Shown here one piece after another: positions 24,023-30,402 of a stretch of DNA of 64,000 bases (its first letter is position 1; every line of letters begins with the position of its first letter). The DNA lies in contig NZ_JACGWA010000001.1 in NCBI RefSeq assembly GCF_014077505.1, positions 1 to 64,000 of the forward strand, given 5' to 3'. Source of the DNA: Colwellia sp. BRX10-3 (lineage in GTDB: Bacteria > Pseudomonadota > Gammaproteobacteria > Enterobacterales > Alteromonadaceae). Below the pieces are notes generated by a model. It made no database searches, was not told the DNA's origin, and worked only from the letters and a program-made list of their open reading frames with translations. The translations under genes were made by a program, and so were the position numbers.

Positions 24023-25339
24023 ATGAGCAACAATAGCAATGAGAGTAATAACGAATCAACGACTGAAGCTGATATAAATTCTTTAGCTTACGCACAAAAC
24101 TTAGATCGTAACGATCCCCTCGCGGCAATGCGTGAGCAATTCTCCATTCCTAAACAGGCTGACGGTACTGACGAATATTACTTCACAGGCAATTCACTCG
24201 GGCTTCAGCCTAAATTAGCTCGCGCCGCTGTTATAGAGTTACTTGATTCGTGGCAAGCACGGGGCGTTAAAGGCCATTTCGAAGGTGAATTTCCTTGGCT
24301 GCCCTATCATGAATTCTTAACCGAACAAGTAGCAGAAATTGTCGGTGCATTGCCAAAAGAAGTGGTGATGATGAACTCACTTACTGCCAATTTACATTTT
24401 ATGATGGCGAGCTTTTATCAACCTACCGAGCAGCGTTCGAAGATCTTAATCGAAGATCATGCCTTTCCATCTGATCATTATGCGGTTGAGTCACAGCTTA
24501 AGCATCATGGTAAAAATGTCGATGACAACTTACTTTTATGGACGCCAAGAGCAGGTGAAGATTTATTAAATTATCAAGACCTTTGGCAAATAATCGAACA
24601 ACATGGGGATGAAATAGCGTTAATTTTATTACCTGGCGTACAATATTATACCGGCCAAGTATTAGACATGCAGCGCATAACCGAAGTCGCCCATGCCAGA
24701 GGCATTAAAGTCGGCTTCGACCTTGCACATGCTGCTGGTAACATTGAATTATCTTTACACCAGTGGCAAGTCGACTTTGCTTGTTGGTGTAGTTATAAAT
24801 ATCTTAACAGCGGCGCCGGCTCAGTTGCCGGTTGTTTTGTGCATCAAAGGCACGTGGAGAATACCGAACTTAACCGCCTTGCCGGTTGGTGGGGGCATGA
24901 CAAATCTAGCCGCTTTAAAATGGAAAATACTTTTAAAGCTATTCCTACTGCCGAGGGCTGGCAATTATCAAACCCGCCGGTACTGTCGCTTGCTGCTGTG
25001 CGTGGTTCTTTCGATACCATCAAACTTGCCGGTGGTATGCCTGCCCTGCGAAAGAAGTCTTTATTATTGACCCACTATATGATCACTTTGATAAACATAG
25101 AGCTGGGCGAAAAAATTCGTATTATTACGCCACAAGACCCAACAGAACGCGGTTGTCAGTTATCGCTAATGATTAATGTTGCAGGCCTTGATGGTAAAGC
25201 TATGTTTACTGCCTTAGAGAATAAGGGTGTAACTACCGATTGGCGTGAACCTAATGTTATTCGTGTAGCGCCCGTGCCTTTATACAATAGCTTTCAAGAT
25301 GTTTATCACTTTGTCAGAATATTAAAGGAGTGTATTTAA
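24023..25339 (+). CDS. kynU: Kynureninase
   Basis: A 438-residue PLP enzyme splitting kynurenine or 3-hydroxykynurenine into (3-hydroxy)anthranilate and alanine. Seen: the N-terminal YFTGNSLGLQP, GFDLAHAAGN (PLP-pyridine Asp) and the Schiff-base lysine in CWCSYKYLNSG (Lys259). The first about 20 residues are Asn/Ser/Glu-rich and probably flexible. The stop overlaps the start of the next gene (TAATG), so the two are translationally coupled. Confidence 0.96.
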   Translation: MSNNSNESNNESTTEADINSLAYAQNLDRNDPLAAMREQFSIPKQADGTDEYYFTGNSLGLQPKLARAAVIELLDSWQARGVKGHFEGEFPWLPYHEFLTEQVAEIVGALPKEVVMMNSLTANLHFMMASFYQPTEQRSKILIEDHAFPSDHYAVESQLKHHGKNVDDNLLLWTPRAGEDLLNYQDLWQIIEQHGDEIALILLPGVQYYTGQVLDMQRITEVAHARGIKVGFDLAHAAGNIELSLHQWQVDFACWCSYKYLNSGAGSVAGCFVHQRHVENTELNRLAGWWGHDKSSRFKMENTFKAIPTAEGWQLSNPPVLSLAAVRGSFDTIKLAGGMPALRKKSLLLTHYMITLINIELGEKIRIITPQDPTERGCQLSLMINVAGLDGKAMFTALENKGVTTDWREPNVIRVAPVPLYNSFQDVYHFVRILKECI

Positions 25340-26739
25340 TGTCAACAAGCGAAAAAATAACCATTGCCGGTGCTGGCCCCGTTGGTACATTGCTTGCTGT
25401 GATGTTAGCTCGTCAAGGTCACCCCGTTAAACTGCTTGAGTCGCGACCTGACTCTCGCAGCCATAATATTTATCAAGGAAAGTCGATCAACATTGCTCTT
25501 TCGGATAGGGGATGGCTAGCGTTAAAATCGGTTGGAATCGAAGCAGAAGTTAAACAGCATGCTATTGCCATGCAAAAGCGCGTAATGCACGCTATTGACG
25601 GCACGATAACCGAACAAGCTTATGGTAAAGAGGGACAAGCTATTTGGTCAGTTTCGCGCTCAGGTATTAATGAACAACTACTCGAATTGGCGGAACAAGA
25701 ACCTTTAATTGATATTAAATTTGAACAACGCTTAATTGACGTAGACTTTAGCAATGCCAGCGCCAGTTTTAGCCATGAACATAAGATAAAAAAAGTATCG
25801 GCAGATATTTTATTTGGCGCAGATGGCGCGTACTCAAAGGTGCGACGATTAGCACAGGAAACACCACGCTTTAGCTATAGCCAGTCATATATGCCGCAAA
25901 GTTATATTGAATTGCACATTCCAGCCAACAAAGACGGCTCATTTAAAATGGCCCAAGATGCCTTACATATTTGGCCACGTAAAACATTTATGCTCATTGC
26001 TTTACCGAACCCTGACGGCTCCTTCACTTGTACTTTATTTTTAGACTATCAAGGTGAGGTTTCCTTTTCGTCATTAACGACACGTGCTGACGTAACTCAA
26101 TTTTTTGAAGAAAACTTTGCAGATGCCATGACTTTACTGGAAAACCCAGTAGATGAGTTTCTTAATAAAACCGCCAATCCATTATTTCTCCTTAAAGTTG
26201 ACCCTTGGGTGATTAACGAGAAAGTAGCCTTAATTGGTGATGCGGCGCATGCAATGGTGCCTTTTTATGGTCAAGGCATGAACTGCGGCTTTGAAGATTG
26301 TCGCGTTTTAGATGAATTAATTACGATACATCAGCAAGACTGGTCAAAAATATTTCCAGCCTATCAAACAGCGAGAAAGATCAATGCTGATGCCATAACT
26401 GAATTAGCCCAACGTAACTTTGTTGAAATGAGTGAACTCTCTGGCAAGCCAAGTTTTTTATTACAAAAGAAAATTGAAGCAGAGTTTCACCAGCGACATC
26501 CAACACTTTGGACGCCACTATACTCTATGGTGACCTTTTCGCCTTTATTACCTTATTCTCAGGCCTTAGCTATTGGCGATATTCAGCAAGAAATTATGCA
26601 GAATATCATGCAAATTCCCGATATTAAAAACTGCTGGCAAGAAACCTTTGTTTATGAAAAATTGCAGCAATTAGCGCAAGCGGCATTTGGCTCCGATAAA
26701 AATTTAACAAATAAGACAAACTTGGGAGGGGCAACGTAA
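25339..26739 (+). CDS. kmo: Kynurenine 3-monooxygenase
   Basis: A 466-residue FAD enzyme that hydroxylates kynurenine to 3-hydroxykynurenine with NADPH and O2. Seen: N-terminal GAGPVG, the ADGAYSKVRR segment and LIGDAAHAMVPFYGQGMNCGFEDC, plus YQGKSINIALSDRGW, which is typical of KMO. I chose ATG 25339, which overlaps the kynU stop and has AAAGGAG 8 nt upstream, over GTG 25330. The end overlaps the next start (TAATG). Confidence 0.95.
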   Translation: MSTSEKITIAGAGPVGTLLAVMLARQGHPVKLLESRPDSRSHNIYQGKSINIALSDRGWLALKSVGIEAEVKQHAIAMQKRVMHAIDGTITEQAYGKEGQAIWSVSRSGINEQLLELAEQEPLIDIKFEQRLIDVDFSNASASFSHEHKIKKVSADILFGADGAYSKVRRLAQETPRFSYSQSYMPQSYIELHIPANKDGSFKMAQDALHIWPRKTFMLIALPNPDGSFTCTLFLDYQGEVSFSSLTTRADVTQFFEENFADAMTLLENPVDEFLNKTANPLFLLKVDPWVINEKVALIGDAAHAMVPFYGQGMNCGFEDCRVLDELITIHQQDWSKIFPAYQTARKINADAITELAQRNFVEMSELSGKPSFLLQKKIEAEFHQRHPTLWTPLYSMVTFSPLLPYSQALAIGDIQQEIMQNIMQIPDIKNCWQETFVYEKLQQLAQAAFGSDKNLTNKTNLGGAT

Positions 26740-27677
26740 TGACTAAAGCTAGCTCAAACACAACAAACTCAAAGCATACTGACACCAAGAAAAAATCCAC
26801 CAGCGATAGCAAGTCAGGCGGTTGTCCCTTTCATCACCAAGCTAGCGACAATGCTCGTCCGCTAGAAGACGGTATTCATCAAGGCCTTGATAAGGAAATG
26901 TCATACGGTGATTACTTACAACTAGAAAGCGTGCTTTCAGCGCAAAAACCATTAAGCGGTGAACATGACGAAATGCTATTTATCATTATTCATCAAACCA
27001 GCGAGTTATGGTTAAAGCTTGCTGGTCATGAACTGCAAAGTGCGATTGACTATATAAAAGCTGAAAACTTTGGCCCCGCATTTAAAGTTATTGCCAGGGT
27101 AAAGCAAATATTTCTGCAACTGACACAATCTTGGAATATTTTATCTACCTTAACACCAAGCGATTATTTAAAGTTTCGTGATGACTTAGGTCGCTCATCG
27201 GGTATTCAATCTTGTGGATACCGTAAATTAGAATTTTTACTGGGTAATAAAAGCGCCGATATGCTGAAAATTCATCAAGAGGGCAGCACGGCATATCAAG
27301 AGCTAGAAAAACTGCTCAACCAAAATAGCCTGTATGATGAAGTGATTATTGCTTTAGCAAAAGCCGGATTTGATATTGATAATACCATGAGTCAACGAGA
27401 TATTACTCAACCCTACCAACGTAACGACAGCGTATTAGCGGCATGGCTTAATGTTTATCAACAACCAGAAACCTACTTTGAACTTTATGAATTAGCAGAA
27501 AAATTGGTCGATATTGAAGATGCCTTTCAACAATGGCGTTTCAAACATATGTATACTGTGCAGCGTATAATTGGCTATAAAAAAGGCACGGGGGGGTCAT
27601 CAGGCGTTGGTTTTTTGAAAAAGGCACTTGATGTAAGCTTTTTCCCTGAGTTGTTTGAAGTAAGAACACATTTATAA
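26739..27677 (+). CDS. kynA: Tryptophan 2,3-dioxygenase
   Basis: A 312-residue heme dioxygenase, the first enzyme of the pathway and the last gene of the operon. Seen: FIIIHQTSELWLKL (His85, substrate base region), SCGYRKLEFLLG, the axial heme-ligand region RFKHMYTVQRIIG and GTGGSSGVGFL. Compared with the family there is a 30-45-residue Ser/Lys-rich N-terminal extension containing CPFHH (29-33). It overlaps the KMO stop (TAATG). Confidence 0.95.
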   Translation: MTKASSNTTNSKHTDTKKKSTSDSKSGGCPFHHQASDNARPLEDGIHQGLDKEMSYGDYLQLESVLSAQKPLSGEHDEMLFIIIHQTSELWLKLAGHELQSAIDYIKAENFGPAFKVIARVKQIFLQLTQSWNILSTLTPSDYLKFRDDLGRSSGIQSCGYRKLEFLLGNKSADMLKIHQEGSTAYQELEKLLNQNSLYDEVIIALAKAGFDIDNTMSQRDITQPYQRNDSVLAAWLNVYQQPETYFELYELAEKLVDIEDAFQQWRFKHMYTVQRIIGYKKGTGGSSGVGFLKKALDVSFFPELFEVRTHL

Positions 27678-28844: not shown

Positions 28845-28872
28845 AAAAACCACTTCAAGTGAAGTGGTTTTT
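28845..28872 (-). terminator. Terminator after the Cys-repeat peptide gene
   Basis: A perfect 12-bp stem (28845-28856 with 28861-28872, loop AAGT) with A/T tracts on both sides. It lies 35 nt after the stop of the Cys-repeat peptide gene, and T-runs allow either direction. Confidence 0.85.
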
Positions 28873-28906: not shown

Positions 28907-29296
28907 TTATTCGCCACACTTACCTTCTTTAACTTTTTCAGCTTTGCCTTCACCACATTTGCCTTTAGCTTTGTGCTTCATTTTACTTTCGCCACATTTG
29001 CCTTTGGCTTTGTCTTTCATTTTACCTTCGCCGCATTTACCTTCTCCACATTTACCTTCGGCTTTGTCTTTCATTTTGCCTTCGCCGCATTTGCCTTCGC
29101 CACACTTACCTTTGGCTTTGTCTTTCATTTTTCCTTCGCCGCATTTACCATTTTCGTGACCGTCAGCAGATACAATAGTCATTACGTTTTGCACAGCAAA
29201 TGGGTTAGTTTCTGCTTTTACTGGCATTGTTGCCGCAACAGTTAATGCAAATAAGCCTAATAAAGCCGCCATTGAAGATTTTTTGATTAATTTCAT
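28907..29296 (-). CDS. HvfA-like Cys-repeat peptide, putative RiPP metallophore precursor
   Basis: A 129-residue exported protein: signal peptide (about 1-28), then a low-complexity Lys/Gly/Glu/Cys tail. Eight cysteines (52, 65, 70, 83, 88, 101, 114, 127) each sit in a GKCGE or GKCGES context, four as EGKCG. In HvfA-type precursors, Cys in EGKCG repeats is converted to oxazolone/thioamide by a DUF692 (MNIO) enzyme with a partner protein, giving a copper-binding peptide. No DUF692 or partner gene is adjacent, so modification is inferred, not seen. It could be an unmodified metal-binding protein. Confidence 0.75.
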   Translation of the reverse strand: MKLIKKSSMAALLGLFALTVAATMPVKAETNPFAVQNVMTIVSADGHENGKCGEGKMKDKAKGKCGEGKCGEGKMKDKAEGKCGEGKCGEGKMKDKAKGKCGESKMKHKAKGKCGEGKAEKVKEGKCGE

Positions 29297-29448
29297 GCTA
29301 TTTTCCTTTTAATTTATCAATTTGACACTACATCTATATGTATAGCTATTTACAAAGACCATAAAGGGTGTAAATAAATTTCAAGCGCTGTAAATTTTTT
29401 TAAATAAACTTTGTTATCTACAACACAATTGAGACTAGCTTTATCTAC

Positions 29449-30402
29449 ATGAAACCACAAGTTAAAAAAATAATTCTGGCGCCTATGGAAGGTGTTGCTG
29501 ATGAGTTAATGCGTCAGATGCTCACATCACTAAATAGCTATGATTTTTGTGTAACGGAATTTGTTCGCGTTGTCGATTCGTTAGTACCTAAACATGTTTT
29601 TAGAAAAATTTGCCCTGAATTAGACCTAGGCTGTATTACTCAAAGCGGTACACTTTTAAGAATGCAACTACTTGGCCAAGAACCCGATTGGATGGCTGAA
29701 AATGCGGTCAGAGCATTGGCCATGGGGTCGCATGGTATTGATGTTAATTTTGGCTGCCCAGCAAAAGCGGTTAACAAAAGTAAAGGCGGTGCTGTATTAC
29801 TGAACGAGCCTGAGAAAATTTATCAAATAATGGCTAAAATGAGAACTGCTATTGGTATTGACGCCACATTGTCTGCAAAAATAAGGCTTGGTTTCACCGA
29901 TGCATCGAAGTTAGATGAAATTGTCAGTGCCATAGAATCAGCCAACGTAAATCAACTCACCATTCACGCCCGCACTAAACAAGATGGCTACCGCCCCCCT
30001 GCCTATTGGCATTTTATTGCCGAAGTTAGAAAAAAATATGATATTGAAATATTTGCTAATGGTGAAATTTGGAATAAAAATGATGCTATAAACTGTATAA
30101 ACCAAAGCCAAACACCTAACTTAATGCTCGGGCGTGGCGCATTAGCTTTGCCCAACTTAGCCAATGTGATTAAGTTTGATGAAGACCCTATGCCCTGGTC
30201 TGAGCTAAGCACTTTATTAAAACGTTACAGTGAATTAGAATTGCAAGGCGATAAAAGCTTTTATTTTTCAAGCCGTTTAAAACAATGGTTGCGTTATTTG
30301 AAGTTACAATACCCTCAAGCCGACAGCCTATTTAATGCTATAAAACTGTTAAAAAATAAAGATGAAATTCTTCATCAAATAGATATCGCAGCATTAGCCT
30401 AA
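29449..30402 (+). CDS. dusC: tRNA-dihydrouridine synthase C
   Basis: A 317-residue flavoenzyme that reduces U16 of tRNA. Seen: APMEGVADELMRQ, the catalytic-Cys region VNFGCPAKAVNKSKGGAVLL, HARTKQDGYRPPAYW (DusC-typical) and LGRGALALPNL. Divergent from the Cys-repeat peptide gene. ATG 29449 gives a normal DusC N-terminus. Confidence 0.92.
   Translation: MKPQVKKIILAPMEGVADELMRQMLTSLNSYDFCVTEFVRVVDSLVPKHVFRKICPELDLGCITQSGTLLRMQLLGQEPDWMAENAVRALAMGSHGIDVNFGCPAKAVNKSKGGAVLLNEPEKIYQIMAKMRTAIGIDATLSAKIRLGFTDASKLDEIVSAIESANVNQLTIHARTKQDGYRPPAYWHFIAEVRKKYDIEIFANGEIWNKNDAINCINQSQTPNLMLGRGALALPNLANVIKFDEDPMPWSELSTLLKRYSELELQGDKSFYFSSRLKQWLRYLKLQYPQADSLFNAIKLLKNKDEILHQIDIAALA

Follow-up and report, generated by a model that had tools for sequence, protein, structure and literature searches.

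Copper peptides matured by MNIO enzymes have recently been defined as a RiPP class, and the usual assumption is that the modification is what they are for. What, then, is a precursor for when its enzyme is missing? The window analysed here, a 64,000-nt stretch of the Colwellia sp. BRX10-3 genome (contig NZ_JACGWA010000001.1), contains such a gene. A first-pass annotation made from the letters alone had titled it an orphan HvfA-like precursor and possible RiPP metallophore, either matured in trans or serving as an unmodified metal sponge. We ask whether its product is modified after all, works as it is, or is dead.

The precursor gene and its product

The minus-strand ORF (Table 1) opens with an ATG and encodes, as first annotated, a signal peptide followed by eight cysteines in regularly spaced GKCGE contexts. 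These are the only cysteines of the protein (residues 52, 65, 70, 83, 88, 101, 114 and 127; spacings 13, 5, 13, 5, 13, 13 and 13), and Glu stands at position −3 of four of the eight, so that EGKCG is not present at every Cys. The part following the signal peptide comprises 101 residues with a calculated pI of 9.2, including 26 Lys, 21 Gly, 13 Glu and 8 Cys; Trp and Tyr are absent.

The protein matches the NCBIfam KCGE repeat domain NF050137 at 55.3 bits (cut-off 19.5) and the HvfA equivalog NF050188 at 45.4 bits, below its cut-off of 95. The latter threshold fails to separate orphan from enzyme-linked forms, since three of four enzyme-linked precursors also fall below it, as do all six orphans scored. 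A Pfam search of the protein returned no match, and hence no DUF2282 domain. AlphaFold2, run on an alignment of 39 orphans, gives a mean pLDDT of 48 and a single helix, within the signal peptide (residues 3–23). On this prediction we reject for the orphan the beta-helix fold that PMC12452194 models for a relative.

The repeats had also been suggested to result from expansion. Cys numbers do range between 6 and 19 across 58 orphan orthologues, but the copies in the window are not fresh duplicates; the eight GKCGE units use six different codings, which rules out recent duplication as their origin. Elsewhere in the window (24023–27677), three consecutive genes resemble, by eye, kynureninase, kynurenine monooxygenase and tryptophan dioxygenase.

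Table 1 Features of the precursor locus, in window coordinates
Feature	Position	Strand	Basis
Orphan gene, almost certainly HvfA-derived; 129 aa, 8 Cys	28907..29296	−	ORF, profile matches, presence in congeners
Signal peptide, residues 1–28; cleavage likely after VKA	29213..29296	−	Cut site by eye from sequence
Spacer with NPF, residues 29–49; lacks the GY element of enzyme-linked homologues	29150..29212	−	
Repeat region, eight GKCGE units; residue at −3 of Cys in order N,K,E,E,E,K,K,E	28910..29149	−	
Purine-rich ribosome-binding stretch AAAGGAAAA	29301..29309	−	By eye from sequence
Promoter element TGAAAT-N17-GGTCT, putatively ECF-type by form	29356..29383	−	
Intrinsic terminator-like hairpin 3′ of the precursor gene	28845..28872	−	1 in region vs 0.3 expected (shuffles)
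dus (tRNA-dihydrouridine synthase), divergent neighbour; marker of the putative ancestral hvf locus	29449..30402	+	Pfam PF01207; synteny

The maturation enzymes are absent across a clade

MNIO and DUF2063 genes had been reported missing from the neighbourhood, and this holds for the whole genome (3.87 Mb, rated 100% complete), which contains no match to PF05114 (DUF692/MNIO) and none to PF09836 (DUF2063); the same PF05114 search finds matches in 2 of 14 control genomes. The first-pass annotation had proposed searching the genome for both families and had named the lack of any MNIO enzyme, together with unmodified cysteines, as grounds for abandoning the RiPP reading; the first of these is what we find. 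An MNIO that acts in trans is contradicted for this genome, the "RiPP metallophore" of the original title is unlikely to apply to Colwellia sp. BRX10-3, and the peptide is very probably free of MNIO modification there.

All 17 genomes of the genus carry the precursor, while MNIO is found in seven of them and DUF2063 in the same seven. The remaining ten have the precursor and no MNIO (9/16 when only genomes at least 90% complete are counted). Across 295 genomes of the family, MNIO (211) and KCGE repeats (217) generally co-occur (odds ratio 4.1), with 173 genomes having both, 44 repeats only, 38 MNIO only and 40 neither. The 44 repeats-only genomes are spread over 11 genera, and 39 of them are at least 90% complete, five below. 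The window protein was searched against 46 chosen genomes, 35 repeats-only and 11 MNIO-bearing, and matched in 44; none of the 43 loci read has an MNIO in its fetched flank. G166, split over contigs, lies outside these loci, and G015 (66% complete) outside the sequence tables. Judged by these distributions, the orphan state is a trait of the clade and not peculiar to the window genome.

An hvfABC locus probably reduced to its first gene

The synteny of the locus explains the orphan state. In another genus of the family (g18; L267–L269), the order is exbD-tonB-tpr, dus (divergent), hvfA, hvfB, hvfC, apt, dnaX, and Ferrimonas (L070) has dus, hvfABC, a response regulator gene, apt and dnaX. Five orphan genera (g27, g30, g4, g12 and g8; loci L259, L261, L276, L262, L260 and L081) show dus, precursor and, in part after a response regulator gene, apt-dnaX at the same place, with hvfB and hvfC absent; the exbD-tonB-tpr flank is visible in g27, g30 and g8. 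In these six loci, 286–435 nt separate the precursor from the next gene, and a search of the 2.5 kb downstream found no significant remnant of hvfB or hvfC (best match E 0.16). In the genus of the window, the dus-precursor pair is found elsewhere and adjoins an SDR gene, whereas in Colwellia proper (g38) and g52 the precursor still adjoins apt-dnaX and dus is missing. The place of hvfA in hvfABC-bearing relatives is accordingly shared in full by the five orphan genera, and by the window only in its dus-precursor junction.

The first-pass annotation was right about HvfA-like ancestry and orphan status. The gene is almost certainly a descendant of hvfA that lost its maturase. The simplest history, and with it the direction of change, is that an ancestral hvfABC locus lost hvfBC; the dus tree is compatible with single or multiple loss and places Ferrimonas on a long branch. 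The ancestor would have had hvfA-hvfB-hvfC between dus and apt-dnaX, from which hvfB (the MNIO) and hvfC (the DUF2063 partner) would have disappeared in the Colwellia-like clade, leaving hvfA with its own promoter element and terminator.

Substrate features decay while the cysteine motif persists

Orphan precursors, 16 from the genus and 42 from other genera (58 in all), were set against 26 that adjoin an MNIO. They count as orphans when the fetched flank, usually 1.5 kb, contains no MNIO; 17 larger stretches were also fetched. Flank size is irrelevant for precursors of MNIO-less genomes, and in clusters L082, L084 and L086 the MNIO lies at a distance of about 2.5 kb. Left out of these counts were L158, a GY-bearing precursor about 59 kb from its own genome's MNIO and so a member of neither class, and L164 and L212, which contain masked letters. 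In the leader, the stretch from NPF to the first repeat contains a GY/GF element in 25/26 enzyme-linked precursors and in 0/58 orphans. For the first Cys in a group, position −3 is invariably Glu in enzyme-linked precursors (164/164), whereas in orphans it is Lys in 288 cases, Glu in 47 and another residue in 50 (n = 385). At the second Cys of a pair, Glu is retained at −3 throughout, in 276/276 orphan and 156/156 enzyme-linked cases. Orphans are mutually related, so the GY and Glu losses are not independent events.

Published assays bear on both changes. FonBC no longer processed a peptide with Arg at position 1 in each of its two repeats, while it tolerated single E-to-A changes (PMC12668002); the loss of Glu alone is for that reason no proof of lost processing, and the position-1 data are suggestive of its mattering in the orphans. 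The changes in the leader are relevant because HvfA without its signal sequence was poorly modified (PMC13419390).

Across the first 42 codons, pN/pS is 0.18 (16 congeners, 120 pairs). When repeat units of the same gene are compared in nine MNIO-less congeners (380 unit pairs), the four codons around the Cys differ by 573 synonymous and 9 non-synonymous changes; the Cys codon itself is excluded, the units having been picked by their Cys. These figures point to strong continuing selection on the gene and on its GKCGE motif in the orphans. Since all 17 congeners carry the gene and its motif is under purifying selection, the window gene is not a chance ORF.

A conserved promoter element, also found before an exported MsrA and a TonB receptor

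A search for a sigma-70-like promoter upstream of the precursor gene found none. The upstream regions of 16 congeners align on a common anchor, TGAAAT-N17-GGTC, most naturally read as the target of an ECF-type sigma factor. We scanned 150 nt upstream of each gene for [TC]GAAAT...GGTC with spacers of 10–25. The N17 element occurs in 16/16 congeners, 29/43 other orphans (with five more at N16) and 19/26 enzyme-linked genes (one more at N16), with no other spacing found and no match on the reverse strand at spacers 14–20. Extending the scan to 400 nt recovers the element in six further orphans and leaves 3/43 without it.

Genome-wide, the full pattern has 4, 7, 8, 4 and 1 sites in the MNIO-less genomes G000, G007, G002, G013 and G006, compared with 2, 3, 3, 3 and 1 for the reversed control. 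This is weakly above control (4 vs 2 in the window's own genome), and most single sites mean little. Sites that recur before the same gene precede the orphan in 5/5 genomes, an exported MsrA in 4/5 and a TonB-dependent receptor in 4/5. In the window's own genome (L277:7175–11807), the element-bearing receptor gene is followed by one for a VTT-domain/MerA-like, disulfide-reductase-like flavoprotein. One further site, recurring in 2/5 genomes (L238, L239), was set aside, as no plus-strand ORF is listed after it and it probably lies inside a long gene.

The own genome contains 15 sigma-type matches, 13 of which were inspected with their upstream regions. Of these, a PRK12517-type ECF gene with a DUF3379 gene next to it is alone in having the motif, which overlaps the start of that ECF gene, so that conservation of the coding sequence would account for it just as well. 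The distance between a SigX-like ECF gene and the TonB-receptor promoter is about 3.2 kb. RpoE2, an ECF factor of H. influenzae, governs under HOCl both msrAB and an operon encoding DoxX, COG3767, COG3220 and DUF2063 proteins (PMC7907618); judged by its domains, we infer that this operon corresponds to hvf.

The orphan as a probable working, unmodified protein

Because the enzyme genes are gone and yet the protein, its Cys motif and its promoter are strongly conserved, the protein probably works unmodified. We propose that it is an enzyme-free descendant of a RiPP precursor that acts as an envelope thiol or metal buffer under stress, a reading we consider probable on comparative grounds. The peptide would be exported via Sec, given its signal peptide, and would serve in the periplasm as a disordered, Lys- and Cys-rich thiol buffer for soft metals such as Cu(I), for oxidants, or for both. 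It may be produced together with the exported methionine sulfoxide reductase during envelope stress. Features needed solely by the modifying enzyme would have decayed, while the GKCGE thiol motif was retained. The unmodified metal sponge, earlier offered as the second option, becomes the better one, favoured by the clade-wide lack of enzymes, the lost substrate features and the retained motif and promoter.

Periplasmic thiols may oxidise to disulfides, hindering metal binding. Metal buffering has a slightly better than even chance of being the main role, and its chief rival is a role of the unmodified protein mainly as a thiol sacrificed to hypochlorite or other oxidants. The latter is a real but less likely possibility. 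It draws on the promoter shared with MsrA and with the receptor and MerA-like gene, and on the parallel to the RpoE2 regulon (PMC7907618), while the enzyme-linked homologues are described as copper binders in PMC12668002 and PMC13419390.

It is also likely that the orphan peptide bears no modification whatsoever. The alternative, that it is still a RiPP whose cysteines are modified by some enzyme from another part of the genome, either unrelated or extremely divergent, would suit the extreme conservation of GKCGE as an enzyme substrate motif. It is nonetheless improbable, as PF05114 and PF09836 matches are absent from the genome, the orphans have lost both the leader GY and the first Glu, and no common candidate enzyme adjoins the gene in any of the three kinds of orphan locus.

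Modification in trans by the MNIO of another cluster, conceivable in the seven MNIO-bearing congeners and impossible in the window's genome, is very doubtful even for the former, in which orphans look like those of MNIO-less congeners. At the congener MNIO loci (9 of 17 inspected), the enzymes mostly have their own precursors, most of them in the company of DUF2063 and of Cys-rich precursors of other types. Among congeners, only G014 has KCGE repeats at a further site; they lie in a full hvfABC cluster (L040:1078–3046) that includes a canonical precursor of its own and was probably acquired separately from the orphan. In L038 and L039, MNIO and DUF2063 lie beside a 207-aa Cys-rich protein, possibly a further type of precursor, in which a signal peptide is not obvious.

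That the gene is a relic or pseudogene on its way out, as the missing maturase genes might suggest and as one option named in PMC12452194 ("no longer expressed or functional") would have it, is contradicted by its presence throughout the genus, the pN/pS of 0.18, the 573:9 ratio at the motif and the retained promoter, and is extremely improbable.

Relation to known systems

The orphan resembles oxazolin/HvfA and fontiphorin (EGKCG captophorins, Buf_EGKCG) in its signal peptide, KCGE repeats and NF050137 domain, and shares its chromosomal place and promoter element with the enzyme-linked homologues of the family. It differs from these captophorins in that its genome has no HvfB or HvfC, GY is missing, Lys replaces Glu before many first cysteines, and the peptide is probably unmodified. 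The oxazolone/thioamide chemistry assumed in the first-pass annotation has since been reassigned to 5-thiooxazole (PMC12668002 and PMC13419390), and the NCBIfam label "oxazolone/thioamide-modified RiPP metallophore" is probably wrong for the orphans.

Precursors of the EGKCG type without an MNIO in the genome were counted before, in 67 of 2583 genomes, and were left as either needing no modification or dead; the available portion of PMC12452194 presents them as a rare count and describes no lineage. The orphans studied here, in contrast, form a coherent, syntenic, selected clade-wide family, and our data argue against "dead" for those of the Colwellia-like clade. Among the matches listed in a search of the open-access literature, no paper describes this clade. 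Like bufferins (DUF2282 and others), the orphans would be exported Cys-rich peptides tied to metal stress, although the window protein lacks a DUF2282 domain and its genome an MNIO.

Metallothioneins and Csp copper storage proteins hold soft metals by unmodified Cys thiols. The orphan would work alike, but it is predicted to be exported and disordered, and has neither a Pfam match nor a recognisable fold. We lean towards a clade-wide reversion of a RiPP precursor to an ordinary protein, the unmodified polypeptide alone keeping the stress promoter and the metal- or oxidant-buffering role. If true, the core function of the peptide family would be shown not to depend on the thiooxazole modification. 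With the enzyme lost and the substrate kept under strong selection across a clade, the orphans offer a natural case for a direct test of the bare peptide.

Further precursor loci

Of 42 further contig loci, seven include an MNIO in the stretch fetched and 35 lack one there. Among the 35, L074 has the GY motif in a stretch that ends about 1.5 kb past the gene; it is probably a true oxazolin cut short. Among the seven, L083 lacks GY; it is an oxazolin-type cluster on a contig labelled as a Klebsiella pneumoniae MAG, perhaps by a binning or naming error. Upstream of GY-type precursors outside the family (L074, L082, L084 and L086), a GAACT-N15/16-GTCT element, nearer the RpoE type, can be recognised by eye in place of TGAAAT-N17-GGTC.
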